Below are positions 27,230 through 43,777 of a DNA stretch of 46,943 nt, in pieces. The notes under the pieces are model-generated. The model ran no database searches. It saw nothing but the letters and a program-made list of their open reading frames with translations, and was not told the origin of the DNA. The number at the start of each line of letters is the position of its first letter. Position 1 is the stretch's first letter. The stretch is from an uncultured Clostridium sp. (GTDB lineage Bacteria; Bacillota; Clostridia; Lachnospirales; Lachnospiraceae), in contig UPYT01000026.1 of NCBI GenBank assembly GCA_900538475.1, positions 1 to 46,943 of the forward strand, in the 5' to 3' direction. Made by a program: the position numbers and the translations under genes.

Positions 27230-28042
27230 TTATTTGCAATAGGTTCCGTACACTTCAATCTGTGTCAGCGCCGGGAACGGTGACGGATCATCAGCCTTAA
27301 TCAGCTTTCCGAATTTCAGCCAGGTAATGCCGCTCTTCTTCATGGGAATGATATGGGGCTTTACACTCTTTTCCAGGCTTACTGTCTCTTCAGAACCATC
27401 TGAGAAGGTAAAAGTTACCTGCTCCCACCAGTTATCATGAGGGAAGTCTGCTCTTGTATACAGAACAATCTCATCAAAATCTACCGGACGTCCAAATTCC
27501 AGAGTCAGCTCTGCATCATCCTGCTGGTTGATTCCCCAGGACTCATAAGGCCAGTATCCATGAGACTCGTTTGCCAGCACACCATCAATGGCGTTGCGTG
27601 CTGCAAATACAGCCTCGCCTCTCGTCTCTACATTGGCAGATGCGTGAGGATAACAGCCGGGATCTCCGTGCTGATCCATACTGTTTTTCGCCAGATTTCT
27701 ATATGCATAAATCTCCCGTTCCAAAGCCGGACGCATGGTCAGATAATGACGCTCTCCTGTAAAAGCCTTGGGATTGTAGGAGGTTTTCTTCTCCTCAAAG
27801 GGAATAACAAACTCAACCTGGGACTTGGTCAGATATACCAGATCCTCATCCATGGTGTCGTCCAGACGGATTACATAATACTTATCAGTCTCTGCTGCCT
27901 CCCATACAATCTTATCGCCCTCTTCATACTGGCCGATCCATGCCAGAATGACTGCTCCCTCAGAAGAAGCAGATGCCTTCTCATTGCCCTCCTGATCCAG
28001 CACGCGAATTGTGTTTTTCAGAACTACCTTCTCATCACTCAT
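27230..28042 (-). CDS. Cytoplasmic protein with C-terminal discoidin (F5/8 type C)-like domain
   Basis: 270 residues. The last about 150 residues look like a galactose-binding/F5-8C beta-sandwich: NAIDGVLANESHGYWPYESWG, AELTLEFGRPVDFDEIVLYTRADF, TFTFSDGSEETVSL and ITWLKFGKL ... QIEVYG. The first about 115 residues are a separate, unrecognised part. There is no signal peptide or membrane span. Such domains usually bind carbohydrates outside the cell; here it should act in the cytoplasm beside a beta-glucuronidase. Possible roles are oligosaccharide binding, an accessory subunit or an enzyme of unknown type. It has its own promoter (28072-28100) inside the tail of the upstream gene and two terminators. 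Confidence 0.75.
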   Translation of the reverse strand: MSDEKVVLKNTIRVLDQEGNEKASASSEGAVILAWIGQYEEGDKIVWEAAETDKYYVIRLDDTMDEDLVYLTKSQVEFVIPFEEKKTSYNPKAFTGERHYLTMRPALEREIYAYRNLAKNSMDQHGDPGCYPHASANVETRGEAVFAARNAIDGVLANESHGYWPYESWGINQQDDAELTLEFGRPVDFDEIVLYTRADFPHDNWWEQVTFTFSDGSEETVSLEKSVKPHIIPMKKSGITWLKFGKLIKADDPSPFPALTQIEVYGTYCK

Positions 28043-28071
28043 AGTTACTCCTATCCTTTCCGTTTTTTCCT

Positions 28072-28100
28072 ATTATACCATCAGAAAGGCTTATAGTCAA
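28072..28100 (-). promoter_or_regulatory. Promoter of the discoidin-domain gene
   Basis: TTGACT (28095-28100), 17 bp, TATAAT (28072-28077) on the minus strand. It overlaps the last codons of the GH2 gene, so the discoidin gene can be expressed alone. Confidence 0.7.
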
Positions 28101-29907
28101 AGTCTGGAATTGCATTCCATCGTTTTTTTAAATAATGGGCTGCCATTTTCGGCCGTCTGTCCCTGGTAAACAGTCCCTTTTTGTTGCCGTCTGCCCGCAT
28201 ACAGCCCTGAACTGTTGCAAAATCAGCAAATCCCCACACATGCTCTCCAATAAAAAAGCTTCTCTTATCAAATTCTGCATTCTGACGGCGGTAAAACTCC
28301 ATCTGATACTCTTCACTGAACATTTCTGGAACAGTTTCGTGAATTCCGGCAATCGCATCTGCCCCGTATTCTGTCACCATAACCGGCTTTCCCTGCTTTT
28401 CCCAGAAATCCAGCTCCTGATTCCAGGCATAGCAGGCTGCATCCAGATTTCCCGAAAGATTGTACCATCCGTAATACCGGTTAATGCATACCACATCCAT
28501 AGTCCGTGTTACCAGATCCCGTTCATAATTGTTCTGGCAGCAAACAAAGGTCACCGGACGGTTTTGAGGATCCAGACTGTGTGTATATTCATACAGGGAA
28601 TGCCAGTATTCGTAAGCTGACTCTGGAAAATGCTCCGTATCCGGCTCATTTCCCATGGACCACATAACCACAGACGGGTGATTTTTATCCCGGCCAACCA
28701 TTTCCCGAAGTACCTGCTCGTGGTGCTCGCGAATAGGAAAGGTTTCATATGGATTCTGAGCCTCTCCTGCACCAATTCCAACAGCCGGCGTCTCATCAAT
28801 AATAACAATTCCCTCTCTGTCGCAGAGATCATACATCTCCTCTGCATAGGGATAATGACTGGTTCGGAAAGAATTGGCGTGTAGCCAGTGAATCAGATTA
28901 ACATCCTTTACATCCAGGCACAGATCCAGTCCTCTTCCATGAAAGGCGGAATCCTCATGCTTGCCAAAGCCCTTAAAATAAAACGGTTTTTCATTAATCA
29001 GAAATTTCGTGCCCTCTACTCTGACGGTACGGATACCAAAGGGCTGTTCATAAACATCTTCTCCACAGGAAATCCGGGCCGTATACAGATATGGAATCCC
29101 CGGCCACGGCCACCATAGCTTTGCCTGGGGAATTCGAAGCTTGCCTGCACATCCGCATCCCCGGGCCACACAGCTTCTGTTTTCATCAAGAATCTCTATC
29201 GCAGTCATTTCAGAAAGCACAGCTTTCTGTTCTCCAGCTCTTCCTTTTACAGAAATATCATATTCCACAATTCCGTCTGCTCCGTCAATAGACGGAACCA
29301 GAGTAATATCATCTACATACATTTCCGGTGTTGTATACAAACGAACCGGACGATTGATGCCTGCATAATTAAAAAAGTCAAAATTGGGAATATTCTGCGG
29401 CTTTGCCCACAGCTTTGCCGCCTCTACACTGGGAACTCCTGGATTGTCAGAACCGAAAAAAGCAATAGCTCCCTCATTTCCCACAGGAAGGGTTCCATGA
29501 TGAATCCGGTTGTCCGCAGCCACTGTAAGAACTCCTCTGGTCCCTGCCGGAATCAAATCTGTAATTTCTACCTCAAAGGGCAGAAATCCCCCCTTATGTT
29601 CTGCTGCAAGTTTTCCATTGATATACACCTTTGCACGATGTGTCACTGCATCAAAACGCAGAACAAGGCGCTGTCCTTTCAAACTGGCCGGCACAGCAAT
29701 CGTTCTTTCATAATAAACCCAGCCATAATGATTTCTGTATGCGGGATCCTCCTTTTGATCGTTATAAGATGCAGGAACAGAAATCACCTCTGAATCCTTC
29801 AGGCTCTCACAGGCTTCTCCCGGATCCCTGGCATCTCCCAGCTGAAATTTCCAGATTCCTGACAAATCCAGTACAGCCCGCACTTCATTTTCTCTTGGAT
29901 ACAACAT
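28081..29907 (-). CDS. GH2 beta-glucuronidase
   Basis: A 608-residue GH2 enzyme that removes non-reducing-end beta-D-glucuronate. N-terminal jelly roll (about 1-190, with GLPF-type sugar-binding fold), Ig-like domain (about 195-295), TIM barrel (about 300-600). Acid/base Glu421 in WSMGNEP and nucleophile Glu513 in MVTEYGADA. The N-x-K pair that recognises the carboxylate of glucuronic acid is present at Asn575/Lys577 (DGNKKG), which separates it from beta-galactosidases. The segment after DETPAVG is short, so it is a mini-loop or no-loop gut GUS type that usually prefers oligosaccharides over small conjugates. No signal peptide, hence cytoplasmic. It works with the lyases and GH88 enzyme encoded nearby. 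Confidence 0.92.
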   Translation of the reverse strand: MLYPRENEVRAVLDLSGIWKFQLGDARDPGEACESLKDSEVISVPASYNDQKEDPAYRNHYGWVYYERTIAVPASLKGQRLVLRFDAVTHRAKVYINGKLAAEHKGGFLPFEVEITDLIPAGTRGVLTVAADNRIHHGTLPVGNEGAIAFFGSDNPGVPSVEAAKLWAKPQNIPNFDFFNYAGINRPVRLYTTPEMYVDDITLVPSIDGADGIVEYDISVKGRAGEQKAVLSEMTAIEILDENRSCVARGCGCAGKLRIPQAKLWWPWPGIPYLYTARISCGEDVYEQPFGIRTVRVEGTKFLINEKPFYFKGFGKHEDSAFHGRGLDLCLDVKDVNLIHWLHANSFRTSHYPYAEEMYDLCDREGIVIIDETPAVGIGAGEAQNPYETFPIREHHEQVLREMVGRDKNHPSVVMWSMGNEPDTEHFPESAYEYWHSLYEYTHSLDPQNRPVTFVCCQNNYERDLVTRTMDVVCINRYYGWYNLSGNLDAACYAWNQELDFWEKQGKPVMVTEYGADAIAGIHETVPEMFSEEYQMEFYRRQNAEFDKRSFFIGEHVWGFADFATVQGCMRADGNKKGLFTRDRRPKMAAHYLKKRWNAIPDFDYKPF

Positions 29908-29939
29908 AGTTCCACACTCTCCTTTTTCAGACTGCTTCT

Positions 29940-29945
29940 ATTATA
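29940..29945 (-). promoter_or_regulatory. -10 element of the beta-glucuronidase gene
   Basis: TATAAT on the minus strand, 33 bases before the start codon. No good -35 lies 16-18 bases upstream, which suits an activator-dependent promoter. Confidence 0.5.
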
Positions 29946-30008
29946 CCCAAGCCAGTCTGCAGGAAACATGGAAATTCCTATAAGAAATCTGCACTTTCTA
30001 TGACAGTT

Positions 30009-30647
30009 TTAAGATACTCCATTCTTCAGGCAGATATCTGACAGGCAGCATTTGTCACAAAAGGGCTTTGTCCGTGCTGTACATACATCTCTGCCATGAA
30101 ACACCAGCCTGTGACAAAAATCACTTCCCTCCTCCGGGGGAACCAGCTTCCAAAGGGCCATTTCCACCCGCTTCGGATCCTTGATATTGTCTACCAGCCC
30201 CATCCGATTGACCAGACGGATGCAGTGAGTATCTGTAACAATCGCCGGCTTCCCAAACACATCTCCCATAATCAGATTGGCGCTTTTCCGTCCAACTCCC
30301 GGCAGTCTGAGGAGGGCGTCAAAATCATCCGGCACCCGGCTGTGAAATTCATCCCTCAGCATTTTCATACATCCGCTGATGTCTCTGGCTTTGCTGCGCC
30401 CCAGACCGCAGGGCTTTACAATCTCCTCAATCTCTTCCACAGATGCCTCTGCCAGAGCATCAATATCCGGGAATTTTTCATAAAGCTTCGGTACCACTGT
30501 ATTTACTCTGGCATCTGTACACTGCGCAGCCAGACGCACGCTGACCAGAAGCTTCCATGCTTCCTCATAATCAAGAGTACATCCCGCATCCGGATACTCC
30601 TTTTTCAGGCGTTCAATAATTTCCATTGTCCGTTCTTCTTTTGTCAT
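30009..30647 (-). CDS. nth: Endonuclease III
   Basis: A 212-residue base-excision repair DNA glycosylase/AP lyase for oxidised pyrimidines. The helix-hairpin-helix LPGVGRKSAN holds the catalytic lysine, and TDTHCIRL holds the catalytic aspartate. The C-terminal cysteines bind a [4Fe-4S] cluster; spacing is C-x7-C-x2-C-x5-C, one residue longer in the first gap than the E. coli pattern C-x6-C. The start at 30647 is chosen because AAGGGA precedes it and the ATG overlaps the stop of the upstream kinase (ATGA). It interrupts the carbohydrate locus and is functionally unrelated to it. Confidence 0.94.
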   Translation of the reverse strand: MTKEERTMEIIERLKKEYPDAGCTLDYEEAWKLLVSVRLAAQCTDARVNTVVPKLYEKFPDIDALAEASVEEIEEIVKPCGLGRSKARDISGCMKMLRDEFHSRVPDDFDALLRLPGVGRKSANLIMGDVFGKPAIVTDTHCIRLVNRMGLVDNIKDPKRVEMALWKLVPPEEGSDFCHRLVFHGRDVCTARTKPFCDKCCLSDICLKNGVS

Positions 30648-31240
30648 CGCTTCCCTTGTTCCTCCACCCATTCTTTTACAGCATGACCCATTTCCTCTAC
30701 GGTCATCCCATCTGTTTTTAAAAAATCAACATCCGGCCTTCCTGAAAACCATTTTCGTTTCAACGGCATCAAATGCTTCACATAATATTCAAAAAATTCC
30801 CGGGAGCGAGTCTCATCTCCCTCTTTATTTTTGCGAAGCCACTCCTCAGATGCGTCCAGAAATAAAATTCTATGGGGCAGGCAGCCTTTCACCTGTTCCA
30901 GCTCCTTTTGTAAAGGAATCTCCACCTCCCAGTCCCACCCCATGGAACGGGGATAGTTCAGCGTGTAAAACACAATCTCCTCTGCCCCAAAATCCATGAC
31001 GGTACAGGGATAGTCTCTGCAGGCTTCCCACCTTCTCACCTCGTTCAGCAGCCACAGCTTTTGAATTTCCAGATAATCCTCATATTTATTTTTATTCAGT
31101 CCCCTTCTCCGAATCTCTTCGATCACGGACTGATTTTCTTCATAGCTTACATGAATCTCCGGAATACAGGCTTCCAGATATCTGGCAACAGTTGTCTTTC
31201 CAGCTGCCATGGAACCCTGAAGTGACAAAAATAATGACAT
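30644..31240 (-). CDS. P-loop kinase-like protein (AAA/deoxynucleoside-kinase type)
   Basis: A 198-residue small P-loop protein with Walker A GSMAAGKTT (9-17), a lid-like Arg/Lys region (LRKNKEGDETRSREFF) and a fold like nucleoside or shikimate-type kinases. Substrate unknown. Its stop codon overlaps the start of nth. GGGAGG precedes the ATG. Upstream are a TATACT box (31293-31298) and a GCGC palindrome. Confidence 0.7.
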   Translation of the reverse strand: MSLFLSLQGSMAAGKTTVARYLEACIPEIHVSYEENQSVIEEIRRRGLNKNKYEDYLEIQKLWLLNEVRRWEACRDYPCTVMDFGAEEIVFYTLNYPRSMGWDWEVEIPLQKELEQVKGCLPHRILFLDASEEWLRKNKEGDETRSREFFEYYVKHLMPLKRKWFSGRPDVDFLKTDGMTVEEMGHAVKEWVEEQGKR

Positions 31241-31410: not shown

Positions 31411-33435
31411 TTAATATTGGAGCACTGTTCCTGCCAGTACATCCTTCTTTTTATCAAACACAATCACATTTCCATATCCCATACAGCCGTCTGCTTCTTC
31501 CAAATCTGTGGGGGAATTCACCTCCTGATGGCAGAAAATAACCACATATTCTGTTCCATGGCAGGAAATTTTTACAGCCTCAGCCATAGAATCCGGATAC
31601 TGAATTCCCTTCAGAGCGGAGTTGACAGGGATTTTTTCTACCAAAATCGATTCCGGTTTTCCATCCGGCGCAGCATGAATCACTGTCAGCAAAGATGCAA
31701 ACCCTTCTGCCTGATATTTCACACAAATTCCCTGACGTTTCTCGTACCGGTTATAGTGGCGGGCAATTTTTCCTTCATACAGCTCCGGCTCTGTTCCCGG
31801 TGTCAGGAAATAAAAATCGGCTCTTGCCTTGTTTCCCTGAAAAACTGCGCAGTTTTGATTCGATCCTTCCAGGTTCACCTGGCCCCGCTCACTGAAATTC
31901 CAGTACTGACGATAGGTATGAGCTCCTCCGGTATACATTTCGTCCATAATCAGATAAATATCCGGTTTTATATAAACAATCTTTCGATTAATAAATACTC
32001 CGTCCTCTGCATATCCCAGATGTCCGCCCTGTACATACTCATAAGAATCTGTAAACCGAAACTGTCCCTTTACCGGCTGGCACAGCTTGGAGCATTCCCA
32101 GGAATCCTTGCATACTGTAAAAAATTTATCATCGACCGTAATCGTATTATGAGCAGTCGGATCCTTAAACTCAAAACGTCCTGAATCTACCACGTAAGTA
32201 TAGCGGCCCGCATCCGTCAGCACATCCTCTCCGCCTACACAAAGATCCACATGAAGCTTATCAGAATGGCCGTGTCCTGCTCCCATGGTTCCGCAGTGAA
32301 AATGAAGCAGAGAACCGTCCTCTCCCCACTTGTCTCTCAGATAGTAATTTCCACTGTCAGAAAGCGCTCCTGACAGGAAATCCGGTTCCTGAATCTCTAT
32401 TTCCTGATAGAGTCTGGCGCTTTCGATTCCCAGATCCCATACGCTTTCAAAGTCCAGAACAGGGAAGCCGCCGAACTTCAGCATAGGATCCCGGAACAAA
32501 ACTGCTGCCGTACTGATATAATCCCGAATATCCATATCATCGCTGTCTCCCATCAGAAGCTGCTTATGATCCGGCTTTTTCCACATCAGATCCGCACAGG
32601 CCATTTTGTGAACCGCATTTAAAATGGTGTCGGGAACCTCAATATCATTGCGGGAGGCAAGAATCAGAACATCCTCGTAGCAGTGAAGCACCTCATTGTG
32701 ATACAGGGGAGACTGCTCCCACTGAACGCCGTCTCCCATAATCTGCATCCGCGCCTCTGCTTCCAGATGCTCCAGGGCAATAGAGGTATAACGCTTTCTT
32801 CTCTCCTCATCCGGCATGGCAATTCCGATTTCAAACAGACCGTGATTCTCGATTACTCCCCAGTTGCTCATATAGCGGTAAGGAGAATGCATCTGAATCA
32901 GAAATTCTGCGTGTTCCACCAGGCAGCTGTAAAATGCATCTACAACCTCATCTGTTACATAGGGGCTGTCCTTAAAATACCGCATGGCTTTTACCCAGAA
33001 CTCTCCGCGGATCCCCGTCTCCAAAATCCTCCAGGTTGTTTTTTCCGTTTCCTCCGTCCGTTTCACCCCAGTAATCCAGCTCATCAGAAGTCGGACAAAA
33101 TGGCGGGCATATTTATCCTCTCCAGTCAGCCAGTAGGCCTGCCCCAGGCAGATAAAAAAGCGGTGACGGTTAAACTGAAACGTAAATTCCGGATCATTTC
33201 CCGGCCGGTATTCCCAGTCAACATCTCCCTCTGGATCAAAGATTACCGGCTCCCAGGTTCGTTCCATATCATGTTCCAAATCAAATAAAAAATAATTCCG
33301 GCATACCTCATCTGCAACGCGAATAATATGTGCGCAGTCCTCCGGCCAGTATGTTTTGCAGTATTCTGCTACGGCCGCCGGATCGTCAAAGAAAAAATAC
33401 TCATTTCCCCTGGAAAAAAACTCCTGCTTGGTCAT
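31411..33435 (-). CDS. Heparinase II/III-family polysaccharide lyase (cytoplasmic)
   Basis: 674 residues with the two-domain lyase layout. An N-terminal alpha/alpha toroid (about 60-340) includes FQFNRHRFF, WRILETGIRGEFW and SNWGVIENHGLFE (Asn197, His198). A C-terminal beta-sandwich (about 360-650) includes GAGHGHSDKLHVDL (His388, His390, Asp392) and TAHNTITVD. In this family Asn/His neutralise the uronate and Tyr acts as base/acid; Tyr245 in SPLYHNE is a candidate. The family acts on heparin, heparan, hyaluronan, chondroitin, alginate or related polymers. No signal peptide, so it should cleave imported oligosaccharides. It is coupled in an operon with GH88 and the sugar importer. Precise PL family and substrate are unknown. 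Confidence 0.87.
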   Translation of the reverse strand: MTKQEFFSRGNEYFFFDDPAAVAEYCKTYWPEDCAHIIRVADEVCRNYFLFDLEHDMERTWEPVIFDPEGDVDWEYRPGNDPEFTFQFNRHRFFICLGQAYWLTGEDKYARHFVRLLMSWITGVKRTEETEKTTWRILETGIRGEFWVKAMRYFKDSPYVTDEVVDAFYSCLVEHAEFLIQMHSPYRYMSNWGVIENHGLFEIGIAMPDEERRKRYTSIALEHLEAEARMQIMGDGVQWEQSPLYHNEVLHCYEDVLILASRNDIEVPDTILNAVHKMACADLMWKKPDHKQLLMGDSDDMDIRDYISTAAVLFRDPMLKFGGFPVLDFESVWDLGIESARLYQEIEIQEPDFLSGALSDSGNYYLRDKWGEDGSLLHFHCGTMGAGHGHSDKLHVDLCVGGEDVLTDAGRYTYVVDSGRFEFKDPTAHNTITVDDKFFTVCKDSWECSKLCQPVKGQFRFTDSYEYVQGGHLGYAEDGVFINRKIVYIKPDIYLIMDEMYTGGAHTYRQYWNFSERGQVNLEGSNQNCAVFQGNKARADFYFLTPGTEPELYEGKIARHYNRYEKRQGICVKYQAEGFASLLTVIHAAPDGKPESILVEKIPVNSALKGIQYPDSMAEAVKISCHGTEYVVIFCHQEVNSPTDLEEADGCMGYGNVIVFDKKKDVLAGTVLQY

Positions 33436-33494: not shown

Positions 33495-34679
33495 TTACCA
33501 GTAAATGTTCCAGTCCTTGTGCAGCCTTGTCAAAGCTTCCATATAAAAATAATCTCCCCAGATATTACATTCATCCACCCCGTAATGATTGCAGGTATTG
33601 TAGGGGGAATGGTTAGAATAGGTACTGTGAAGCACCAGTCCGTTTGACTGTGACGGATCCTTTACTGCATAATGATCCACCACAGATTTCATCAGCCTTT
33701 TTGCAATGGAAATATAGTAAGCCGCCTCCTTAGATGGCAGGTATTTTGCCATTTCCAGCATGCCGCAGGCTGCAATCGATGCAGAAGAAGAGTCTCTGGG
33801 CTGATCCTCATTTCCATCGCCAAATTCCAGATCCCAGTAAGGAACCAGATCCTCTGGAAGATGACGGAGAAAATATTCTGTTACTCCTTTAAAAATCGGA
33901 ATATAGGACTCTCGTTTTGTATATTTATATCCTACCGCTGTTCCGTAAACACCCCAGGCCTGTCCTCTTGCCCAGGCAGAACCGTCGCGGTACCCCTGAC
34001 AGGTTGCACCGTGATCCGGCGCCCCTGTTTCGCGGTTAAAGAAAAAGGTGTGCCAGGTAGAAAAATCAGGACGGATCACGTTAGCCAGCGCCGTATGAAT
34101 ATGCTTTTCCGCTACCTGACGGTATTTTTCCTCTCCTGTTTCCTCTGTTGCCCAGTAAAGAAGAGGCAGGTTTAGCAGACAGTCAATAATCAGCCGGTAA
34201 TTATCCGGCGCATTTAAAGGTCCCCATGCCTGAATGAATTCTCCCTTTTCATGGAAACGGGTAATCAGCTCCTCTGCTGCTTTTAAGGCAGCCATTCTTC
34301 CCACCTGACTTCCTGTCAGCTTATATCCAGCCACACAGGAGGGAGAATATAAAAATCCCAAATCATGGGTTTCCACATCAATTTTTTCTTCAATCCGATT
34401 CAGAAAATCCTTCATCTGAATCTCTCCGGCCTCCTTCAGTGCCGGATTCTTTGTATGCTCATAGGCCAGCCAGATCTCTCCGGTCCAGAAGCCGGTTGTC
34501 CAGTCTCTGTTTTCTGTGGGCTGATAAAATCCATTTTCACTGTAAGCCTTCTGAAAGCAGTGAGTAAATTTCGGAAGATTCCGAATCACCTGGGCGGAGG
34601 CCGCATCCAGGGCAGCTTCCACCTCGCTGTCTGTTATTTCCGGCTTCTGCTCCAGTTTTTCAAGTGCAATCCAACTCAT
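33495..34679 (-). CDS. GH88 unsaturated glucuronyl hydrolase
   Basis: A 394-residue (alpha/alpha)6-barrel enzyme that hydrates the double bond of 4,5-unsaturated uronic acids made by lyases, freeing the keto-acid from the adjoining sugar. Two catalytic-region aspartates match the family: Asp106 in THDLGFLYSPS and Asp166 in LIIDCLLNLPLLYWA. The substrate-binding motifs GAPDHGATCQGYRDGSAWARGQAW (in two parts) and QPRDSSSASIAACG are typical of UGL rather than GH105. There is no signal peptide. It lies between the permease and lyase genes in one operon. Preference for chondroitin, hyaluronan or heparin disaccharides cannot be read off with certainty. Confidence 0.92.
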   Translation of the reverse strand: MSWIALEKLEQKPEITDSEVEAALDAASAQVIRNLPKFTHCFQKAYSENGFYQPTENRDWTTGFWTGEIWLAYEHTKNPALKEAGEIQMKDFLNRIEEKIDVETHDLGFLYSPSCVAGYKLTGSQVGRMAALKAAEELITRFHEKGEFIQAWGPLNAPDNYRLIIDCLLNLPLLYWATEETGEEKYRQVAEKHIHTALANVIRPDFSTWHTFFFNRETGAPDHGATCQGYRDGSAWARGQAWGVYGTAVGYKYTKRESYIPIFKGVTEYFLRHLPEDLVPYWDLEFGDGNEDQPRDSSSASIAACGMLEMAKYLPSKEAAYYISIAKRLMKSVVDHYAVKDPSQSNGLVLHSTYSNHSPYNTCNHYGVDECNIWGDYFYMEALTRLHKDWNIYW

Positions 34680-34697: not shown

Positions 34698-35534
34698 TTA
34701 ACCCTTTACGCCAGAGGCAGCTACACCTTCTACAAAGTATTTCTGCAAAGACAGGAACACAATCAATACAGGAATCAGACTGAGTACAGAAGCTGCCATA
34801 ATCAGACCATATTCAGAACCAAACTGGCTGATAAACATACGAAGTCCCAGCTGCAGAGTTTTCTTTGATTCTGTTGTCAGATAAATCAACGGCCCCAGGA
34901 AATCATTCCAGGTATTCACAAAGGTGAAAATAGTCAGGGTAGACAGGGCCGGCTTAGAAAGAGGCAGCATTACCCGGTACCAGATCTGGTATTCCGTCAT
35001 ACCGTCAATCCGGGCCGCCTCACAAAGCTCTGTAGGAATTCCCTCATAAAACTGCTTCATCATAAATACGCCGAAGGCAGAGAAGGCCTGCAGGCAGATA
35101 ATTGCCAGATGCGTATCAGCCAGTCCAAAGGAACGCATCATCATAAACTGCGGTACCATATATACCTGCCAGGGAACTGCAATGGTTGTAATATATGCTA
35201 AAAACAGGGTGTTTTTTCCTTTAAACTGCAGCTTGGCAAAAGCATAGGCCGCAAAGCTGCTGGTCAACAGCTGAAGGAAGGTTACAATCAAGGTCAGCTT
35301 TACGGTATTCAGCACAAATTTTGAGAGGGGGATTTTGTGCCAGATATCCACGTAATTCTGCCATCTGGGATTCTCCGGAATCCACTGTATGGGGAAAATA
35401 AATACATCCTTATCAAGCTTAAAGGATGCGGAAAGCATCCAGGCAAAGGGAACCAGCATTACCAGAGCAAGGGCAATCAAAACAACATAGAGGATTACCC
35501 GAAAGGCTCTTGTTTTTGTATTTTTGATTTTCAT
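34698..35534 (-). CDS. Carbohydrate ABC transporter permease, MalG type
   Basis: A 278-residue permease with six predicted helices and the cytoplasmic EAA loop EAARIDGMTEYQIWYRVMLP that docks on the ATPase. CUT1 family, which imports oligosaccharides. It lies 12 bases from the partner permease and 18 bases before GH88. No ATPase gene is present in the window, so a shared MsmX-like ATPase elsewhere is expected. Confidence 0.93.
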   Translation of the reverse strand: MKIKNTKTRAFRVILYVVLIALALVMLVPFAWMLSASFKLDKDVFIFPIQWIPENPRWQNYVDIWHKIPLSKFVLNTVKLTLIVTFLQLLTSSFAAYAFAKLQFKGKNTLFLAYITTIAVPWQVYMVPQFMMMRSFGLADTHLAIICLQAFSAFGVFMMKQFYEGIPTELCEAARIDGMTEYQIWYRVMLPLSKPALSTLTIFTFVNTWNDFLGPLIYLTTESKKTLQLGLRMFISQFGSEYGLIMAASVLSLIPVLIVFLSLQKYFVEGVAASGVKG

Positions 35535-35546: not shown

Positions 35547-36620
35547 CTAGTTTGAATATTTCTTCTCCCCACGGAACTGTACCAGGGTAATGGCCAGAAC
35601 AATGAGGAACAGTACCATGGCTACTGCACTTGCATAGCCCAGATTCCAGTTACGGAAAGCTTCTTCGTAAATGTGATAAACCAGTACAATCGCTGACTCA
35701 TTCAGCACACCGGCATTTCCGCCTGCCAGCATGTATACAATATCGTATACCTTGAAACAGTTAATGGTCAGGATAATCGTAACAAAGAAGGTAGTCGGCT
35801 GCAGCTGAGGCCAGGTAATGTAGCGGAACCGCTGCCATGCATTGGCGCCGTCTAAGCTGCAGGCCTCATACAGTTCTCCATTGATTCCCTGAAGACCTGC
35901 CAGATAAATAACCATATAGTAGCCCATGTTTTTCCAGACAGAGAACATAACAACCGTAAACATAACCCAGTCCTTGTCAGCCGCCCATTTGGGAAGACTT
36001 TTTGCCGCCATACCCACATTATACAGAATCATATTGACTGGTCCGCTTTTTGCCGGAGAAAACAGCATATTCCACACTGCTGCAACTGCTACCAGAGAAG
36101 CCACATACGGGAAAAAGCTGACAGTACGGAAAAAATTCCGTCCTTTAATATGCTGATTCAGGAGAACTGCCAGACCCAAAGCAGCTGCCAGGGTAAATGG
36201 TACTGTTGCAACACAGTAAATAATCGTATTCTTTAAAGATGCCAGGAAACGGGTATTTCCAATCATCATAGCAAAATTATCCAGAGCTGCAAACTGCATC
36301 GGGTTATTTCCATCCCATTTAATAAATGCAAGGATAAATGCGAAAATAACTGGTCCAAGAGTAAATACTGCAAATCCGATAAAGTTTGGTGCAATAAAGC
36401 TGTAGGCTACCAGATCCCGTTTTGTCTGGCGGCTGAACCGCTCTCCGGTTTTGGCCTGACGAATCTTATCTCTTACCTGATCCACCTTTTTCCCCAGCTT
36501 CAGTTTCTTTTTTGGATCCTGCTCCGCCTCTGCCTGCTGCTGCAGCTTTTCAAGCTGCGGCTCTAAAACAGCCAGCCTGCGCTGAACCTCTGCCGGATCC
36601 ACTGACTTTTTCTGTCTCAT
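35547..36620 (-). CDS. Carbohydrate ABC transporter permease, MalF type, with N-terminal coiled coil
   Basis: A 357-residue permease. The membrane part starts near residue 72 and contains the EAA loop YEACSLDGANAWQRFRYITWP. In front is a hydrophilic, Lys/Glu/Gln-rich segment of about 65-70 residues (LEPQLEKLQQQAEAEQDPKKK) predicted to be a cytoplasmic coiled coil, not usual in MalF-type proteins of this size. The family lets oligosaccharides pass with MalG-type partner and binding protein. It is separated from the binding-protein gene by a stem-loop (36655-36691). Confidence 0.92.
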   Translation of the reverse strand: MRQKKSVDPAEVQRRLAVLEPQLEKLQQQAEAEQDPKKKLKLGKKVDQVRDKIRQAKTGERFSRQTKRDLVAYSFIAPNFIGFAVFTLGPVIFAFILAFIKWDGNNPMQFAALDNFAMMIGNTRFLASLKNTIIYCVATVPFTLAAALGLAVLLNQHIKGRNFFRTVSFFPYVASLVAVAAVWNMLFSPAKSGPVNMILYNVGMAAKSLPKWAADKDWVMFTVVMFSVWKNMGYYMVIYLAGLQGINGELYEACSLDGANAWQRFRYITWPQLQPTTFFVTIILTINCFKVYDIVYMLAGGNAGVLNESAIVLVYHIYEEAFRNWNLGYASAVAMVLFLIVLAITLVQFRGEKKYSN

Positions 36621-36732: not shown

Positions 36733-38085
36733 TTACTGCGCCAGAATTGCAGAAATTTTTTCATTCATATCAGCAATTCCTTCATCGATGGTACTGTTTC
36801 CGGTCATGATGTTGTCATGAGCCTCGTTTAATACTGTCTCCATCTCAGAGCTCTTGGTGCTTACCGGCATTTCCAGATACAGATTTGCAGTCTGAAGAGC
36901 CTCTTTGCTGCCTTCATCTGCCGGGAATCCCTCAATAGAAGCTACCATGTTGGCAATATCATCGGTCATGATTGCCGGAATGGTTCCTGTAGATGCCAGA
37001 ATATCAGCGCCCTCTTCTCCGCATACAAACTTTACAAAATCCCAGGACATATCTTTATCCTTTGCGGTAGTCGGAATAGCCAGAGAGGTAATCGTTGCCA
37101 GAGTAGAGCCCGGTTCTACGCCCTCTGCATGAGGATATTTTACCATACCCCAGTTGCCGCAGTCTGTGTATTCACCTGCTTTTACCTTATCAATCAAAGT
37201 AGAAATAAACCAGGTTCCCATGTTCATCATTGCTACATTTCCCTGAGAAAATGCACCGGAATAATGAAGATTAGAGGTCTTTAAGGTTGCATAGTCCTGA
37301 CATACACCGTCCTCCTGCTCTGCCAGAATCATCTCATAATACGGCTTCAGGAAATCATAGTTTCCATCAATAATGCTGTTCTTTCCATCCAGAATACCAA
37401 ACAACTGAACTGCACTTCTCCAGGTATGATAGTGAGCTCCGTACACCTCCTGACCAGGCATATCGTTGGTAACGCTTCTTGCCAGAGCGTCATACTGCTC
37501 AAAGGTCATATCATTGGTCGGATAATCCACTCCTGCTGCATCAAAAATATCTTTATTATAGAATACAACCCAGAAATCGCTTCTAAAAGGAAGCTCATAC
37601 AGCTTATCTTCTACTTTAATTTGGTCGGTCAGCCCCTTAAATGCGCTTAAATCTACGCCGTCTTTTGCAATATACTCATCCAGCGGCTCCAGAACGCCCT
37701 TGTTTACCAGAGTGGTATATCCGGGAACATCTTTTACAGTTACAACATCAAAATCAGAGCCAGATCCGGTCAGCTGTGTAGCAAGAACGGTCTGGTAATC
37801 AGAGCTTCCCAGGTCAACCAGTTCAACCTTTACATCCGGATGAGCGCTTTCATAGGCTTCAATTAAAGGCTGGTAATAAACGGTTAAATCCTTATCCCAC
37901 ATAGCCCATTTCAGAACCTTCTGTCCCTCTGCCGGAGCCTCTGTTTCAGCTGCTGCCTCAGTCTCAGCCTTTGTATCTGCTGCCGGTGCTGCCGTGGTTT
38001 CTCCTGTCTGAGAACCGCCGCATGCTACCAGACTTCCTGCCATAGCTGCTGCCAGAGAAAGGCTTAAAATACGTTTTTTCATCAT
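36733..38085 (-). CDS. Sugar ABC transporter solute-binding lipoprotein
   Basis: A 450-residue CUT1-type binding protein. The start is placed at the double ATG at 38085 (AGGAGG upstream), which gives a clean lipoprotein signal MMKKRILSLSLAAAMAG and lipobox LVAC (Cys22). An Ala/Glu/Thr-rich linker follows to about residue 60, then the MalE-like fold (KVLKWAMWDKDLTVYYQPLIEAY ... and SDFDVVTVKDVPGY). First gene of the operon SBP-MalF-MalG-GH88-lyase. It should capture uronic-acid oligosaccharides outside the cell. Divergent from the sensor kinase gene, whose product probably controls it. Confidence 0.93.
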   Translation of the reverse strand: MMKKRILSLSLAAAMAGSLVACGGSQTGETTAAPAADTKAETEAAAETEAPAEGQKVLKWAMWDKDLTVYYQPLIEAYESAHPDVKVELVDLGSSDYQTVLATQLTGSGSDFDVVTVKDVPGYTTLVNKGVLEPLDEYIAKDGVDLSAFKGLTDQIKVEDKLYELPFRSDFWVVFYNKDIFDAAGVDYPTNDMTFEQYDALARSVTNDMPGQEVYGAHYHTWRSAVQLFGILDGKNSIIDGNYDFLKPYYEMILAEQEDGVCQDYATLKTSNLHYSGAFSQGNVAMMNMGTWFISTLIDKVKAGEYTDCGNWGMVKYPHAEGVEPGSTLATITSLAIPTTAKDKDMSWDFVKFVCGEEGADILASTGTIPAIMTDDIANMVASIEGFPADEGSKEALQTANLYLEMPVSTKSSEMETVLNEAHDNIMTGNSTIDEGIADMNEKISAILAQ

Positions 38086-38172: not shown

Positions 38173-38175
38173 TGG

Positions 38176-38339: not shown

Positions 38340-40211
38340 ATGAAAAAGCACATATTTCCGCAAACGGTCCGAAACCAGATTATTATCAGTACAGCAGCTA
38401 TAACCCTTATTATCGCTGCCATTACTGTGACTATCTGCTTTTCTGTATTCCAGTCCTTTCTCCGCAAAGCGGAGATTCAGTCTGCGGAATTCAATATGCA
38501 GGTTATTTCCAACAACGTTTCGGCCGACATGGATCACATATTTTCCTTTGTAGACTGGTGCAGCAGCAATACAGACATCAATCATTTTCTGCGGGTCTTT
38601 CAGAATCAGGAAAAGATGCCTACTATCTCCTCGGAAGATTTTTCCCTCCGCACCGTAGCCTTAAATACCTACAGCCGGTTAAAGGAGCAGTACAATGATA
38701 CTCCCTCCTCAGAAAAATACATGTCCCGGGTTTTGATTTCTCCGGAAAATAGAAAAGTATACCTTCAGCTTTCCGATACAAGCGCTACCAATACCTCCTC
38801 TGCTGCAGATATTGTCTATGCCGATGAGCATTTTCAGAGGTTTCTCAATGCGCCGGAATACCTGTGGAACGGTTTGCATCCGGATCCTCTTCTGGAATCT
38901 GACAGCCCGAAATTCCTTCCCATTGTGCGTCCTATTTATAATCAGTACAATGCGGATCGAATTGGATGGCTCTATCTTACAATTCCGGAAAGACTGCTGA
39001 CGGATTATATTCATACCCTGCCTTTAGAAGAAGACTCTGCCCTCTATGTTACTATCGGAGAACATACCTACCGTTATAACTGCGGCCAGCTGACAGAGTG
39101 TGATTTTTCTTTTCAGATCTTAAAGGATGTCAGCAGTCAAACCTTCCATAAAAGCAATCGCGCTGCTCAGGTACAGTTTCCAGACGGAAGCCGGCGGTAC
39201 ACAGTATCCTGCCCTCTGGGAAATCAGGGATGGACCATTACTCAGGTGCTTTCTGATCAGAGCTATCTGGCCCAGAGAGACGTTTATAATACCATTATTG
39301 CGGGGATTGTCGTTGTTATCCTCATATCCGGAGGGCTTCTCTACCTGGTATTAAGCCATCTGATCAATCGTCCTGTTGCCTTGCTTCAGAGCAAAATCGA
39401 CGCTATTGCTCAGGGAGATTTTTCCAGAGACCCTTCGATTGAATGGAAAAATGAATTCGGAACCATCGGGAAAGGAATTAATCAGATGTCGGAAAATGTA
39501 GTTTCTCTGATGGACAAAAAAGTAGAAGATGAAAAGCAGAAAAAGGATCTGGAATATCAGATTCTTCAAAGTCAGATTAACCCGCATTTTCTCTACAATA
39601 CCTTGAATTCCATCAAATGGATGGCAACCATTCAGGGCGCCGGCGGTATTGCAGAAATGACTACAGCCCTGGCCCGACTGATGAAAAATGTCTCCAAAGG
39701 CACAGGCGCCCAGATTCCCTTAAAAGACGAGTTGGCGCTGGTTCAGGATTATTTTCTGATTCAGCAGTACCGATATGGAGGCAGTGTGTCCCTGGAATGC
39801 CGGATTCCAGATCCCAAGCTGTATCACTGCATGATTCACCGTTTTTCTCTTCAGCCTATTGTAGAGAATGCACTCTTCCACGGCATTGAGCCCAAGGGCT
39901 GTGCCGGAAAGATTGTCATTGAGGCATGGGAATCCTCTGCCTCTGACGGCCAGCCACTTCTGAAGGTTTCTGTTACTGACAACGGTATCGGTATGACAGA
40001 GGAGACCATGAAAAAAGTGCTGACTGGGGAAGCCGATTCCTCCGCTGAATTTTTCCGCCATGTGGGAATCAATAACGTAAATAAACGAATTCAATATGAT
40101 TTTGGGGAGGATTTCGGAATCACAATCCAAAGCGAAACCGGAGAAAATTCCTATACTGTCATGACCATAACACTCCCCTATATCACAGATGAAAGGACAA
40201 CGATATTATGA
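38340..40211 (+). CDS. Sensor histidine kinase, YesM/LytS-like
   Basis: 623 residues. Transmembrane helix 1 at about 13-36, an extracellular sensor domain (about 40-315, Cache-like), helix 2 at about 318-340, a HAMP linker (about 342-395), then the His_kinase domain with phosphoacceptor His416 in SQINPHFLYNTLNSIKW, and a GHKL ATPase domain (about 500-620: IVENALFHGIEPKG, VTDNGIGMT). Typical of sugar-sensing kinases paired with AraC-type regulators. It probably senses the polymer fragments directly or through the nearby binding protein. Its stop overlaps the start of the response regulator gene (ATGA at 40208-40211). Confidence 0.93.
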   Translation: MKKHIFPQTVRNQIIISTAAITLIIAAITVTICFSVFQSFLRKAEIQSAEFNMQVISNNVSADMDHIFSFVDWCSSNTDINHFLRVFQNQEKMPTISSEDFSLRTVALNTYSRLKEQYNDTPSSEKYMSRVLISPENRKVYLQLSDTSATNTSSAADIVYADEHFQRFLNAPEYLWNGLHPDPLLESDSPKFLPIVRPIYNQYNADRIGWLYLTIPERLLTDYIHTLPLEEDSALYVTIGEHTYRYNCGQLTECDFSFQILKDVSSQTFHKSNRAAQVQFPDGSRRYTVSCPLGNQGWTITQVLSDQSYLAQRDVYNTIIAGIVVVILISGGLLYLVLSHLINRPVALLQSKIDAIAQGDFSRDPSIEWKNEFGTIGKGINQMSENVVSLMDKKVEDEKQKKDLEYQILQSQINPHFLYNTLNSIKWMATIQGAGGIAEMTTALARLMKNVSKGTGAQIPLKDELALVQDYFLIQQYRYGGSVSLECRIPDPKLYHCMIHRFSLQPIVENALFHGIEPKGCAGKIVIEAWESSASDGQPLLKVSVTDNGIGMTEETMKKVLTGEADSSAEFFRHVGINNVNKRIQYDFGEDFGITIQSETGENSYTVMTITLPYITDERTTIL

Positions 40212-41827
40212 TAAAACTGCTGATTGTTGACGATGAACCTCTGGTACAGATCGGCATAAAATCTATGATAAACTGGGCAGAGCTTGGCATTGAAGTCTGC
40301 GGTACTGCCATGAACGGTCAGGCTGCCCTGGATATGATCCGGGAATACGCCCCGGAGCTGGTCATTACCGATATCAAGATGCCGATTATGAACGGCCTGG
40401 ATTTGGTGAAAGCCTGCAGAGACGAAATCGGCCCCATCCCCCTGTTTCTTGTTCTTACCAGCTATGAAGAATTTGAGCTGGTGAGGAAGGCTCTCTCCTA
40501 CCAGGTTGTTGATTATCTGGTTAAGCTTGAGCTGGATCCAGACAACCTCAGACAGGCTGTCGAACGGGCCCTGGAGCGATTAAACCAGCTAAAGGAAAGC
40601 GCTGCATACCGTCAGGCTGGCGGACGCCCCCTGCTGCAGAGTTATTCTGATAAATTTTTCATGCGTCTTCTCCACAATCTGTTTGACAGCCGGGAACAGT
40701 TTGCCATTCAGGTGCGGGATCTGCGCCTAGATTTTTCCCATCAGTGCTATCTGGCCTGCCACGGTGAAATTCACAGCGGAGTAGCCGCCCAGCTAAGCAG
40801 GGAAAAACAGATGAATCTGTATTCCAGCAGCCTGCAGATGATACGGGAAATATTTAATAAATATGCGCCCAGTTATGTTATTTCCCTTGATAAAATCCAT
40901 TTTGCCGCGGTTTTTCATTTTCCTACGATGGAAAAGGCCGATATTACCGCTGTACAAAACGGTATTTCCAACGCCTGCTCCATGGTACATAATTATTTTA
41001 ATGTATGGCTTTCCATAGGAATTGGAAGTGCTGTAGACGATCCCTTAAAAATAAGCGGATCCTATCAGGAAGCCCGACAGGCATTCAATCTGGCGGATCA
41101 GGAAAATCCTGTTGTTCCTTTTTCCCGGATTACCGATGACACCATGAAAAATGCCTTTAACATTACGGTTTTTAAAAACAGTCTGACACAGGCCTTTGAA
41201 GAGTTTGACACAGACGTACTCTACCGCACACTGACGGAAATTACAGAGCTTTTCATCTCCAATCCGCAGAAATATCTTCAGGCTGTAGATGCCGCCTGCA
41301 ATATTCTGTATCTTGCTCTTTCCCTTCTTCCCGGCAGTGAGGAAACCCTGGAAGAAATTTTTTCCGCCTATCCAGATGGATACCGTTCGATTTACAGGGC
41401 AGCCAGCATTATGGAGGTTACGCAATGGCTGAATACCCTTCGGGACGGGCTATGCAGCATTCTGAAAAACAAACGCAAAACCTACAAGGATCATGTTGTC
41501 TCTAATGTTCAAAAATATATTGATAATCACATCGAAGACCGGCTGACCCTAAACGATGTCGCGGCTGTATTTGGATTGACTCCCAATTATTTAAGCGCCC
41601 TTTTTAAGAAAAGCTGCAGCATCGGATTTACAGAATATATTACTCAGAAAAAAATAAGCCGGGCCAAGGCCCTTCTTCTGGAACAGGATTACAAGATCTA
41701 CGAGGTGGCAGACCGGCTGGGCTTTGAAAGCGCATTTTATTTCAGCAAAGTATTTAAAAAAGTAGAAGGCGTATCCCCCCGGGACTACATCCAATCCCAT
41801 ACCGCTGCGCCAAGCTACCGTGAATAA
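40208..41827 (+). CDS. AraC-family response regulator, YesN-like
   Basis: 539 residues. Receiver domain at 1-120 with acidic pocket Asp8/Asp9 and phosphoacceptor Asp55 in VITDIKMP. A long central domain of unknown fold (about 135-420) follows. The C-terminal pair of AraC helix-turn-helix motifs (about 435-530) includes DVAAVFGLTPNYLSALFKKS and YEVADRLGFESAFYFSKVFKKVEGVSPRDY (in parts). Partner of the upstream kinase. Likely activator of the divergent importer/lyase operon and perhaps of the glucuronidase gene. Confidence 0.94.
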   Translation: MIKLLIVDDEPLVQIGIKSMINWAELGIEVCGTAMNGQAALDMIREYAPELVITDIKMPIMNGLDLVKACRDEIGPIPLFLVLTSYEEFELVRKALSYQVVDYLVKLELDPDNLRQAVERALERLNQLKESAAYRQAGGRPLLQSYSDKFFMRLLHNLFDSREQFAIQVRDLRLDFSHQCYLACHGEIHSGVAAQLSREKQMNLYSSSLQMIREIFNKYAPSYVISLDKIHFAAVFHFPTMEKADITAVQNGISNACSMVHNYFNVWLSIGIGSAVDDPLKISGSYQEARQAFNLADQENPVVPFSRITDDTMKNAFNITVFKNSLTQAFEEFDTDVLYRTLTEITELFISNPQKYLQAVDAACNILYLALSLLPGSEETLEEIFSAYPDGYRSIYRAASIMEVTQWLNTLRDGLCSILKNKRKTYKDHVVSNVQKYIDNHIEDRLTLNDVAAVFGLTPNYLSALFKKSCSIGFTEYITQKKISRAKALLLEQDYKIYEVADRLGFESAFYFSKVFKKVEGVSPRDYIQSHTAAPSYRE

Positions 41828-41839
41828 AGGAGATTTCTT

Positions 41840-43777
41840 ATGTTTCAGGAACTTGCCAAGACCTATTGTACCACTTTTGTACCCTTTCATCCGGCTGCCC
41901 CTGCTGCAGTTCGAACTGCCTGGGAGCACCTGGATCCTTCCATTCTTTCCCTTCTTCTCAAAGATGGAGAACGCTGTTTGAAAGAGCCGTGGCCGACTCT
42001 TACTGCCACAGACTATCTTGATTTTACCAGAACCGGAAGAAGATCACTCTTTGAAGGCAAGCTGTTTGCCCGAAGAACCCTTCTCAATTCCATGCTTCTG
42101 GCAGAGTGTGCCGAGCATCAGGGACGCTTTCTGGATTCTGTTTTAAATGGAATCTGGTCTATCTGTGAGGAGACCTCCTGGTGTCTTCCTGCCCACAATT
42201 CCTATATCCGTGATACCCCTCAGCTTCCTCTTCCAGATGCACGGCGCCCGGTAATTGACTTATTCGCCGCGGAGACAGCTGCCATTCTTTCCACAGCCAG
42301 ATACCTGTTAAAGCAGGAGCTGGATGCAGTCAGTCCTGCTGTTTCTGTCCTTCTTGATAAGGCCCTGTCCGAACGTATCTTTGTTCCTTACCTGAACGAG
42401 CATTTCTGGTGGATGGGAGACGGCAAATCTCATATGAATAACTGGACTGTCTGGTGTACCCAGAATATTCTTCTGACTGCCGCACTGTCAGATATCAGTG
42501 AGGAAGTTCGCAGAGCTGTTTTTCTTAAGGCATGCGAAAGCCTTGACTATTTTCTTGCAGAATATGGGGAGGATGGCTGCTGTGATGAGGGCGCTCAGTA
42601 TTTTCACCACGCTGGCCTTTGTCTTTTTGGCTGTATGGAAATCCTCAATGCCATAACAGACGGACATTTCCACGCTTTATATGAGGAGCCGAAGATTAAA
42701 AATATTGCCTCCTACATTGTTCAGGTACATGCGGCAGGTCCCTATTACATCAATTTTGCAGACTGCTCTCCGATTGCCGGACAGTGCGGCGCACGAGAAT
42801 ATCTCTTTGGAAAACGCACCGCAAATCCCCGTCTTATGGGACTTGCTGCCGGAGATTTCCGCCAGTCACAGGACCCTCTGCTTAGAGAAGAACACAATCT
42901 TTTTTACCGCCTGCAGACGATTTTTTCCGCTCAGGAAATGACGGATTATGTGACAGCTGCTCCAACCACAGGAGATGATATTTATTATCCCAGCACCGGG
43001 CTTTTTATCGTCCGTGACAGTCGGTTTTGTCTGGCCGTAAAAGCCGGTGATAATGATGACAGCCATAATCACAATGACACCGGCAGCTTTACTATTTACA
43101 GAAACGGGCAGCCTCTCTTTGCTGATATTGGAGTGGAAACCTATCAGAAAAAAACATTTTCGGAAGAGCGTTATTCCATCTGGACCATGCAGTCTCAGTA
43201 TCACAATCTGCTTTCCTTTGCTGGATGTGACGAATCGGCTGCCATTTCACTTCCTTATGGATATGCAGTGAATTTTGGTTCTGCCAATTCAGAATCCGGC
43301 GCTCCCGCCATTGCCGCCATGCAGCACAACGGTCCCCAATATCGGGCAAACGATGTCCGCTGGCAGCTGACCGATACCTTTGGAGAAATTTCCATGGAAC
43401 TGGCAGACGCTTATCCAGAACAAAGGGTTTCATCTTATGTACGAACCGTTCGCCTGGATAAAGAAGAAGGAATTACCGTTACCGATGTGGTCAGCTGCGG
43501 CTCCCTTCAGCCAGTACTTTCTCTGATTACCTGTGAAGAGCCTTTCTGGAACGAAGAAACCTTGGAGCTTTTAATTCCTTTTTCAGAAACTTATGCTGTT
43601 CTGCTTGACAGCCAGACTGAGGCTTCCTCCTCTGTCTGCAAAATCCAGGGCGCCGCAAAGGTAATAAAAGAGCGGCTGCCCATTACGGACAACCGCCTCA
43701 AAACCGCCTGGAAGCAGGATATGTGGAGAACTCTTATTTACCTTCAATCCAACCAATGCTCCTTAAGTATCCAATAG
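41840..43777 (+). CDS. Second heparinase II/III-family protein, divergent subfamily
   Basis: 645 residues with no signal peptide. N-terminal toroid-like helical region (about 1-360) includes SHMNNWTVWCTQN (His198, Asn200, Asn201) and DEGAQYFHHAGLC (Tyr254, His256, His257). The C-terminal heparinase_II_III beta domain includes GDNDDSHNHNDTGSF (His409, His411, Asp413) and PLFADIGVETY. Overall it has little similarity to the other lyase at 31411, so the two should differ in substrate or cleavage mode, for example endo against exo. It is encoded with the regulatory pair, 12 bases after the regulator's stop, with AAAGGAG upstream, so it is expressed with the sensor at basal level. It could form the inducer from first imported oligomers. 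Confidence 0.85.
   Translation: MFQELAKTYCTTFVPFHPAAPAAVRTAWEHLDPSILSLLLKDGERCLKEPWPTLTATDYLDFTRTGRRSLFEGKLFARRTLLNSMLLAECAEHQGRFLDSVLNGIWSICEETSWCLPAHNSYIRDTPQLPLPDARRPVIDLFAAETAAILSTARYLLKQELDAVSPAVSVLLDKALSERIFVPYLNEHFWWMGDGKSHMNNWTVWCTQNILLTAALSDISEEVRRAVFLKACESLDYFLAEYGEDGCCDEGAQYFHHAGLCLFGCMEILNAITDGHFHALYEEPKIKNIASYIVQVHAAGPYYINFADCSPIAGQCGAREYLFGKRTANPRLMGLAAGDFRQSQDPLLREEHNLFYRLQTIFSAQEMTDYVTAAPTTGDDIYYPSTGLFIVRDSRFCLAVKAGDNDDSHNHNDTGSFTIYRNGQPLFADIGVETYQKKTFSEERYSIWTMQSQYHNLLSFAGCDESAAISLPYGYAVNFGSANSESGAPAIAAMQHNGPQYRANDVRWQLTDTFGEISMELADAYPEQRVSSYVRTVRLDKEEGITVTDVVSCGSLQPVLSLITCEEPFWNEETLELLIPFSETYAVLLDSQTEASSSVCKIQGAAKVIKERLPITDNRLKTAWKQDMWRTLIYLQSNQCSLSIQ

Follow-up and report, generated by a model that had tools for sequence, protein, structure and literature searches.

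The locus at positions 27230-43777 of contig UPYT01000026.1, from an uncultured Clostridium sp. of the Lachnospiraceae (assembly GCA_900538475.1) that is probably a gut bacterium, raises the question of how a bacterium might feed on a glucuronic acid (GlcA)-containing polysaccharide when none of the enzymes that would degrade it carries an apparent signal peptide. The window that we analyzed is the whole stretch of 46,943 nucleotides. On sequence grounds, the locus probably serves to take up short oligosaccharides derived from a 1,4-linked GlcA polymer and to depolymerize them in the cytoplasm, the likely substrates being of the non-sulfated heparosan or hyaluronan (HA) type.

Enzymes, importer, and regulators of the locus

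Gene families were assigned with Pfam and NCBIfam profiles, and the Pfam scan took in 40 of the 89 listed open reading frames of at least 100 amino acids in the window, many of which are overlapping frames. The minus strand encodes, in order, a solute-binding protein (SBP), two permeases (permF and permG), a GH88 enzyme, a PL12-type lyase, an AAA_28-like ATPase, an endonuclease III-like protein (nth), a GH2 beta-glucuronidase (GUS), and a discoidin-like protein (disc); the plus strand encodes a sensor kinase, a response regulator, and a PL33 lyase. The importer, GH88, GH2 glucuronidase, two heparinase-fold proteins, discoidin protein, and YesM/YesN-type pair named in an initial annotation of this DNA are all found where that annotation had placed them. 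The interval additionally contains two unrelated genes, however, and the two heparinase-fold lyases belong to different families.

The product of 41840..43777 (plus strand) is, as predicted from its residues and best structural match, a PL33 lyase with a PL33_1-type residue. Its best match in PDB is 8r73 (E = 3.3e-88), with which it shares 161 of 436 aligned residues. The published PL33 catalytic residues N238, Y291, and H444 are all conserved, and R103, H154, L174, W224, W239, W242, Y470, and F475 are kept as well, for a total of 11 of 11 active-site and platform residues. Position 242, occupied by W205 of the window protein, is Trp in PL33_1 and Val in PL33_2 (PMC11848413). Trp is also present at this position in the rhizobial, Bacteroides, and Martelella copies, and Val in a Haloterrigena copy and two shorter Bacillota copies (G017_C150 and G008_C55; G, C, and L numbers are our handles for genomes, contigs, and loci). 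The PL33_1 assignment is a reading of position 242; the covarying position 301 (His in BtPL33) does not map at a constant offset. An AlphaFold model of the protein has a pLDDT of 83, and its ten best fold matches in PDB are all PL33 proteins, with a TM-score of about 0.8.

The other lyase (31411..33435, minus strand; PF16889 and PF07940) matches 4mmh at E = 3.7e-28, and a profile built from 30 of its relatives matches the same structure at E = 1.4e-46. The NCBIfam HepC equivalogs score 132.9 and 102.9 bits on this protein, far under their cut-offs of 700 and 600; thus, the lyase is distant from the named HepC, and we label it PL12-type. In a hand mapping on the 4mmh alignment, its N191, Y245, H388, and H429 align with N240, Y294, H424, and H469 of PL12. 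Y294 is the residue named in the literature consulted, and N240, H424, and H469 are the other catalytic residues.

GH88 (33495..34679, minus strand; PF07470), a predicted unsaturated glucuronyl hydrolase, has 2zzr/3anj (gbs1889) as its best PDB match (E = 2.4e-115). Read by hand, its D106 and D166 fall at D115 and D175 of 3anj, the catalytic aspartates of this S. agalactiae enzyme. GUS (28081..29907, minus strand) scores 700.6 bits on the NCBIfam beta-glucuronidase equivalog NF007538, above the cut-off of 544, and matches 6u7i at E = 1e-267. The earlier argument that lyases, GH88, and GUS would form a logically complete set for a GlcA polymer is supported by these assignments.

The importer is of the carbohydrate ATP-binding cassette (ABC) type and consists of the lipoprotein SBP (36733..38085, minus strand; PF01547), which carries an LVAC lipobox and matches 4rk2 best in PDB (E = 1.4e-142), and the permeases permF (35547..36620, minus strand) and permG (34698..35534, minus strand), both PF00528. 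The Pfam scan of 40 window proteins turned up no ATPase for this importer and no sulfatase, KduI, or hexosaminidase family. The genes from SBP to the PL12-type lyase are tightly spaced, with gaps of 12-112 bases. Divergent from SBP, across 254 intergenic bases that contain promoter-like sites, lies the gene for a YesM-type sensor histidine kinase (38340..40211, plus strand; PF06580, HAMP, HATPase_c). It overlaps by 4 bases the gene for a YesN-type AraC-family response regulator (40208..41827, plus strand; PF00072, PF12833), and PL33 starts 12 bases past the regulator gene. Promoter-like sites in the region number 38, a mild excess only over the 27.2 in shuffles (sd 4.9).

In the route that we propose, oligosaccharides would enter through the lipoprotein-dependent ABC importer, which would borrow a MalK/MsmX-type ATPase encoded elsewhere, and PL33 and the PL12-type lyase would cut the imported chains by beta-elimination in the cytoplasm. 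GH88 would take off the unsaturated uronate, which KduI-type enzymes encoded elsewhere in the genome would process next, while the GH2 glucuronidase would take GlcA off the original, saturated ends. The YesM/YesN pair would sense an outside ligand and turn the locus on.

Cellular location and conservation in Lachnospiraceae relatives

Signal peptides were judged with a hydropathy window and by eye rather than with SignalP, a procedure that detects classical signal peptides only. By this test, disc, GUS, the PL12-type lyase, GH88, and PL33 lack a signal peptide and SBP scores positive, which bears out the initial annotation on the degradative proteins. Of 2858 PL33 relatives found, the best 120 all lack a signal peptide; of 1317 PL12 relatives, the best 120 include one that scores high, a protein that looks chimeric. 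Copies of the locus gave the same result for GH88 (0 of 38), GUS (0 of 12), PL12 (0 of 41), and PL33 (0 of 6), with SBP as the positive control (25 of 27 copies score as having a signal peptide). The PL33 of Bacteroides finegoldii (L135) retains one.

We extended this comparison to 18 relatives that were picked for carrying a PL12 locus, several of which are incomplete metagenome-assembled genomes (MAGs). These genomes hold 70 heparinase-fold matches, and 2 of 14 control genomes match. We read 66 of the 70 proteins, the other four being the locus PL12 of G005 and of G018 and one match each in G002 and G004; three of the 66 lack an N-terminus, leaving 63 that can be evaluated. All but two of these (G015:C4 and G005:C9) are signal-less, so 61 of 63. 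Two PL33 copies (G008:C24 and G017:C66) that scored 1.65 from an internal alternative start are counted as signal-less, since their first start yields the usual PL33 N-terminus, and the PL33 copy G018:C169 is counted though short and perhaps truncated. A predicted lack of signal peptide is thus usual for the heparinase-fold proteins of these Lachnospiraceae and does not set this locus apart. The all-cytoplasmic character that had been put forward therefore stands as a description, with enzymes that look cytoplasmic, and falls as a distinguishing trait. That import would precede cleavage is likewise supported.

The core of the locus is widely conserved. The window PL12 shares 99% identity with a cluster of 398 proteins, and the nearest genome fetched is that of an uncultured Eubacteriales MAG (L013; PL12, 87%). 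A scan of genome contigs with a profile from the PL12 alignment gave 57 loci. In 24 of these, PL12 is accompanied by GH88, SBP, and both permeases, none below 53% identity, which indicates more than chance co-occurrence; a kinase match is present in 21 of the 24. PL33 adjoins the regulator in 8 loci and is found at no less than 53% identity in 9 of the 18 genomes, with one more match (G002) not retrieved, so PL33 appears to be optional. The GUS-disc pair adjoins PL12 in L001 and L002, lies beyond PL33 in L093, and is about 9 kb past the regulator in L095. Both lyases occur in two cultured hosts, Clostridium sp. AT4 and Enterocloster alcoholdehydrogenati. In G005, a 2411-amino-acid protein with GH59, laminin-G, FIVAR, and choline-binding domains is encoded between PL33 and GUS (L094:2416-9651); its N-terminus is hydrophobic, and it is probably secreted.

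We also surveyed the relatives' genomes for downstream and extracellular functions. The KduI family is present in 17 of the 18 (6 of the 14 controls also match), and three copies (L110, L152, and L153) all score above the kduI cut-off. OB_MalK ATPases occur in all 18 and, unspecifically, in 10 of the 14 controls; two that were read score as the UgpC subfamily. Although kduI and a MalK/MsmX-type ATPase lie 10 kb or less apart in 9 of the 18 relatives (for example, L152 and L153), we rejected a functional pairing of the two and take the arrangement as synteny, as the intervening genes, in the two stretches that were annotated, include those for a thioesterase, CvfB, and a methyltransferase.

The locus had been called sulfatase-free, which holds for its own genes, but PF00884 proteins are found in 17 of the 18 relatives' genomes, with 48-51 in two of them, an unspecific signal given that 10 of the 14 controls match too. 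PF00884 also takes in other enzymes such as LtaS. PL8 is present in 5 of the 18 relatives and in 0 of the 14 controls. Four of the relatives' six PL8 N-termini are outside the fetched stretch, one is near a contig end, and one is without an apparent signal peptide; the 815-amino-acid PL8 frame at L108 (G018:C163) shows none. The two signal-peptide heparinases belong to relatives other than the PL8 carriers and reside in L128 and L130. These two loci, with L119 and L122, hold several heparinase-fold proteins near PF00884 proteins, separate from the locus described here, and are possibly of a heparan-sulfate type. Neither PL8 nor a signal-peptide heparinase is found in 11 of the 18 relatives, including the complete [Clostridium] asparagiforme genome (G006), a count subject to MAG gaps, to other enzyme families, and to one unread heparinase-fold match each in G002 and G004. 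This fits dependence on the outer lyases of other species, and such cross-feeding seems plausible from the gene content.

Rhizobial counterpart, disc protein, and neighboring genes

The best solved relative of SBP, 4rk2, is a protein from Rhizobium etli. Plasmid pC of R. etli CIAT 652 encodes in one stretch orthologs of disc (47% identity), PL33 (40%), permF (PC0514; 64% over 82%), permG (PC0515; 72%), GH88 (57%), and SBP (53.6% over 87% of its length), and additionally an ATPase, a DUF624 protein, and a DUF2264 protein. Agrobacterium vitis has an equal gene set, confirmed protein by protein, and in R. anhuiense the gene order is equal by annotation and PL33 was read. These three plasmid loci (L088 and L089, compared protein by protein, and L090, compared by annotation, position, and its PL33) share with the window SBP, two permeases, GH88, and PL33, with disc beside PL33. 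Unlike the window, they have their own ATPase, a DUF624/YesL-type protein, and, where the window has GUS, a dehydratase-type DUF2264 protein. No PL12 was found in the plasmid stretches read, so that importer, GH88, and PL33 occur there without it.

The DUF2264 protein of rhizobia has a match of E = 8.6e-26 to 9o4u, the solved structure of a beta-D-glucuronic acid dehydratase, and a member of this family primes saturated GlcA ends for GH88 (PMC12269599). Given this published role and its place in the cluster, a different protein appears to fill the GUS slot in rhizobia. The earlier argument that GUS serves saturated chain ends gains support from this replacement.

The pairing of PL33 and disc recurs across rhizobial plasmids. 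PL33 matches 110 Rhizobium plasmid records, disc 112, and GH88 110. From totals of 141 PL33 and 130 disc records, we compared 53 rows, the Rhizobiaceae entries among 60 listed PL33 matches, with 30 disc rows (28 from a listing of 60 and 2 from another) chosen largely for being in both lists, and in these selected rows PL33 and disc lie within 414 bases of each other in 29 of 29 shared records. No annotated disc neighbor was present at the non-rhizobial PL33 records read (Bacteroides, Haloterrigena, and Martelella).

The disc protein itself (27230..28042, minus strand; DUF7402) scores 26.2 bits on PF24135, just under the cut-off of 27. It is not a gene of glycosaminoglycan (GAG) loci only, a proposal that we rejected on finding 4618 relatives and on finding disc in 14 of the 18 relatives' genomes, in 10 of those 14 away from the locus. 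In such places it is beside DUF2264 in one relative and near a GH88-family gene in another, and a Paenibacillus copy is near sulfatases, with no lyase annotated there. An Enterococcus faecalis plasmid (L138:8207-12323) carries consecutive genes for DUF2264, disc (48%; annotated as hypothetical), and GH88 (42%) and, further on, one for a PL8 with an N-terminus that resembles a signal peptide. A fusion of disc with a type I phosphomannose isomerase is encoded in Clostridium sp. AT4 (L148:4557-6320) and in E. alcoholdehydrogenati (L147:4697-6517). We also rejected the idea that disc is the counterpart of DUF4627 (BT4411 type), the neighbor of Bacteroides PL33, since a profile comparison detected no similarity between them. 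A structural model of disc (mean pLDDT 75; below 50 at residues 139-173) matches only generic discoidin-type proteins and allantoicase; therefore, we read no function from it. Given that disc recurs beside PL33, GUS, or the glucuronate-dehydratase type, we tentatively suggest, while holding it doubtful, that importer, GH88, signal-less PL33_1-type lyase, and disc form a cassette common to gut Lachnospiraceae and plant-associated Rhizobiaceae, which would be an all-cytoplasmic route for a GlcA polymer off the PL33 substrate list, with disc as a working part rather than a passenger.

The two other genes in the interval are of a different kind. The AAA_28-like gene (30644..31240, minus strand; PF13521, 24.8 bits, under the cut-off of 27) encodes a small ATPase with no counterpart in any of the 57 related loci and is probably an unrelated passenger. 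The nth gene (30009..30671, minus strand; PF00730; TIGR01083, 201.5 bits, just under the cut-off of 211.7) is functionally unrelated to the locus yet syntenic in close relatives, with orthologs of 87-89% identity in the same position in L001 and L002. To the left of the locus (22446-27065) are a FecCD-type metal ABC importer with its ATPase and a methyltransferase/NTPase_1 two-domain protein. To the right, an FMN_bind/FAD_binding_2 (fumarate-reductase-like) protein is split across two overlapping frames (44608-46148), reflecting a broken gene or a sequence error, and the right end of the window (46117-46851) has a weak match, below cut-off, to a PD-(D/E)XK family transposase.

Substrate, alternative explanations, and known systems

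PL33_1 acts on HA and heparosan, and GAG-active PL12 is reported only on heparin and heparan sulfate (PMC11848413). Since heparosan is compatible with what has been published on the specificity of both lyase families, we favor heparosan as the substrate, with HA next. Some loci pair the same importer and GH88 with PL12 only and others with both PL12 and PL33, and rhizobia pair them with PL33 only, which suggests that both lyases may act on the same class of imported oligosaccharide.

Several observations weigh against such an assignment. Bacillota sequences are mostly PL33_2, active on chondroitin sulfate (CS) and gellan, the W242A and W242V variants of BtPL33 are nearly neutral for catalysis, and HA-type PL33_1 enzymes show some CS activity (PMC11848413); for these reasons, Trp at position 242 is a weak marker of specificity. 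The PL33 model falls below a pLDDT of 50 at residues 117-126, 190-196, 199-201, and 433-450, loops that cover active-site residues, and the shape of the tunnel is thus unreadable from it. The nearest solved GH88 relatives are named as chondroitin-disaccharide enzymes, not heparosan ones, and the locus contains no amino-sugar gene. For kdu genes, the ATPase, sulfatases, and secreted lyases, the survey covered relatives' genomes. Finally, the importer-GH88-PL33 set is found in plant-associated bacteria, for which animal GAGs are an unlikely food, and the predicted rhizobial cassette weakens a purely animal-GAG reading.

This last point leads to the proposal that the natural substrate is a non-GAG, 4-linked GlcA polymer of gut and soil, dietary or microbial, degraded by the same chemistry. 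Candidates include plant glucuronomannan, a bacterial exopolysaccharide, and glucuronan. The plasmids of R. etli, R. anhuiense, and A. vitis, with the same importer, GH88, PL33, and disc, speak for it, the disc-phosphomannose isomerase fusion is a faint hint of mannose, although in two genomes only, and one PL33_2 enzyme shows some activity on glucuronan (PMC11848413). We nevertheless judge it unlikely, as GAG-active PL12 enzymes are reported on heparin and heparan sulfate only and active PL33_1 enzymes take HA and/or heparosan (PMC11848413). About equally unlikely, in our estimate, is that the locus forms part of a distributed heparan or chondroitin sulfate system, finishing desulfated oligomers while sulfatases and any outer lyase are encoded elsewhere. 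The PF00884 proteins and PL8 of the relatives would suit such a division of labor, as would G005:C9 and G015:C4, where about 16 kb span a signal-peptide heparinase together with further heparinases and a PF00884 protein. Against this stand the PF00884 matches in controls and the 11 relatives, the complete [Clostridium] asparagiforme genome among them, that have neither PL8 nor a signal-peptide heparinase.

Action of the lyases at the cell surface, after export by a route that needs no classical signal peptide, is by comparison very unlikely. Earlier authors drew the PL12 enzyme HepC outside the cell (PMC6045597), alternative secretion signals have been deemed likely for many signal-less hydrolases of the Roseburia/E. 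rectale group (PMC5320581), and the hydropathy test would overlook such signals. Signal-less N-termini extend, however, across PL33, GH88, GUS, and nearly all heparinase-fold proteins, while the B. finegoldii PL33 keeps its signal peptide. Import of heparosan- or HA-type oligosaccharides followed by cytoplasmic depolymerization is the reading that we retain.

How the locus relates to described systems can be seen from Roseburia hominis A2-183, for which a heparin-sulphate Gram-positive polysaccharide utilization locus (gpPUL) was predicted with the only polysaccharide lyase (PL) of the Roseburia/E. rectale group (PMC5320581). A gpPUL is defined as a PL-containing enzyme set, a transporter, and a regulator in one locus (PMC9067506), all of which the window locus contains. 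Like the window, the R. hominis gpPUL has a PL12, an unsaturated-glycoside hydrolase (dGH), three ABC genes, and a two-component system (PMC9067506). In the R. hominis MAG locus L040, identities to the window are 55% for PL12, 66% for GH88, 75 and 60% for the permeases, 57% for SBP, and 39 and 50% for the regulators. Beyond these shared parts, the window has PL33 next to the regulator and GUS-disc downstream. The 21-kb stretch of L040 encodes a GUS-like protein (63%) but has no match to PL33 or disc.

GAG clusters of streptococci, Streptobacillus, and lactobacilli also combine a lyase, GH88, and an importer (PMC5430744, PMC6045597), and that of Streptobacillus pairs an ABC importer with PL12. 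In contrast to the window, these clusters carry kdu/dhu genes together with PL8, a sulfatase, and/or a phosphotransferase system, and the Pfam scan of 40 window proteins found none of these. The related clusters are drawn with their lyases outside the cell (PMC6045597, PMC5430744), and a haloarchaeal GAG cluster also adds GH2 (PMC13260240). BtPL33HA and BcPL33HA of Bacteroides (PMC11848413) share with the window PL33 the PL33_1-type residues and the fold, but the Bacteroides copy that we read (B. finegoldii L135) differs in its signal peptide and in its next gene, which is DUF4627 rather than disc. The locus is a variant of an already predicted kind of gut gene cluster (importer, GH88, and PL12, with or without a two-component system). 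Among the papers listed in searches of open-licence literature, we found no description of the version with PL33 and GUS or of the rhizobial cassette, and, according to PMC9067506, no GAG cluster of gut Firmicutes had been characterized as of 2022.

The interest of the locus lies in the signal-less-lyase rule, in the cassette shared across phyla, and in the unexplained disc protein. The rhizobial counterpart would offer a genetically tractable system in which to find the true substrate and the role of disc. For the Lachnospiraceae, many of which carry the core of the locus, its recurrence predicts cytoplasmic lyases, import of oligosaccharides, and dependence on the outer lyases of others.

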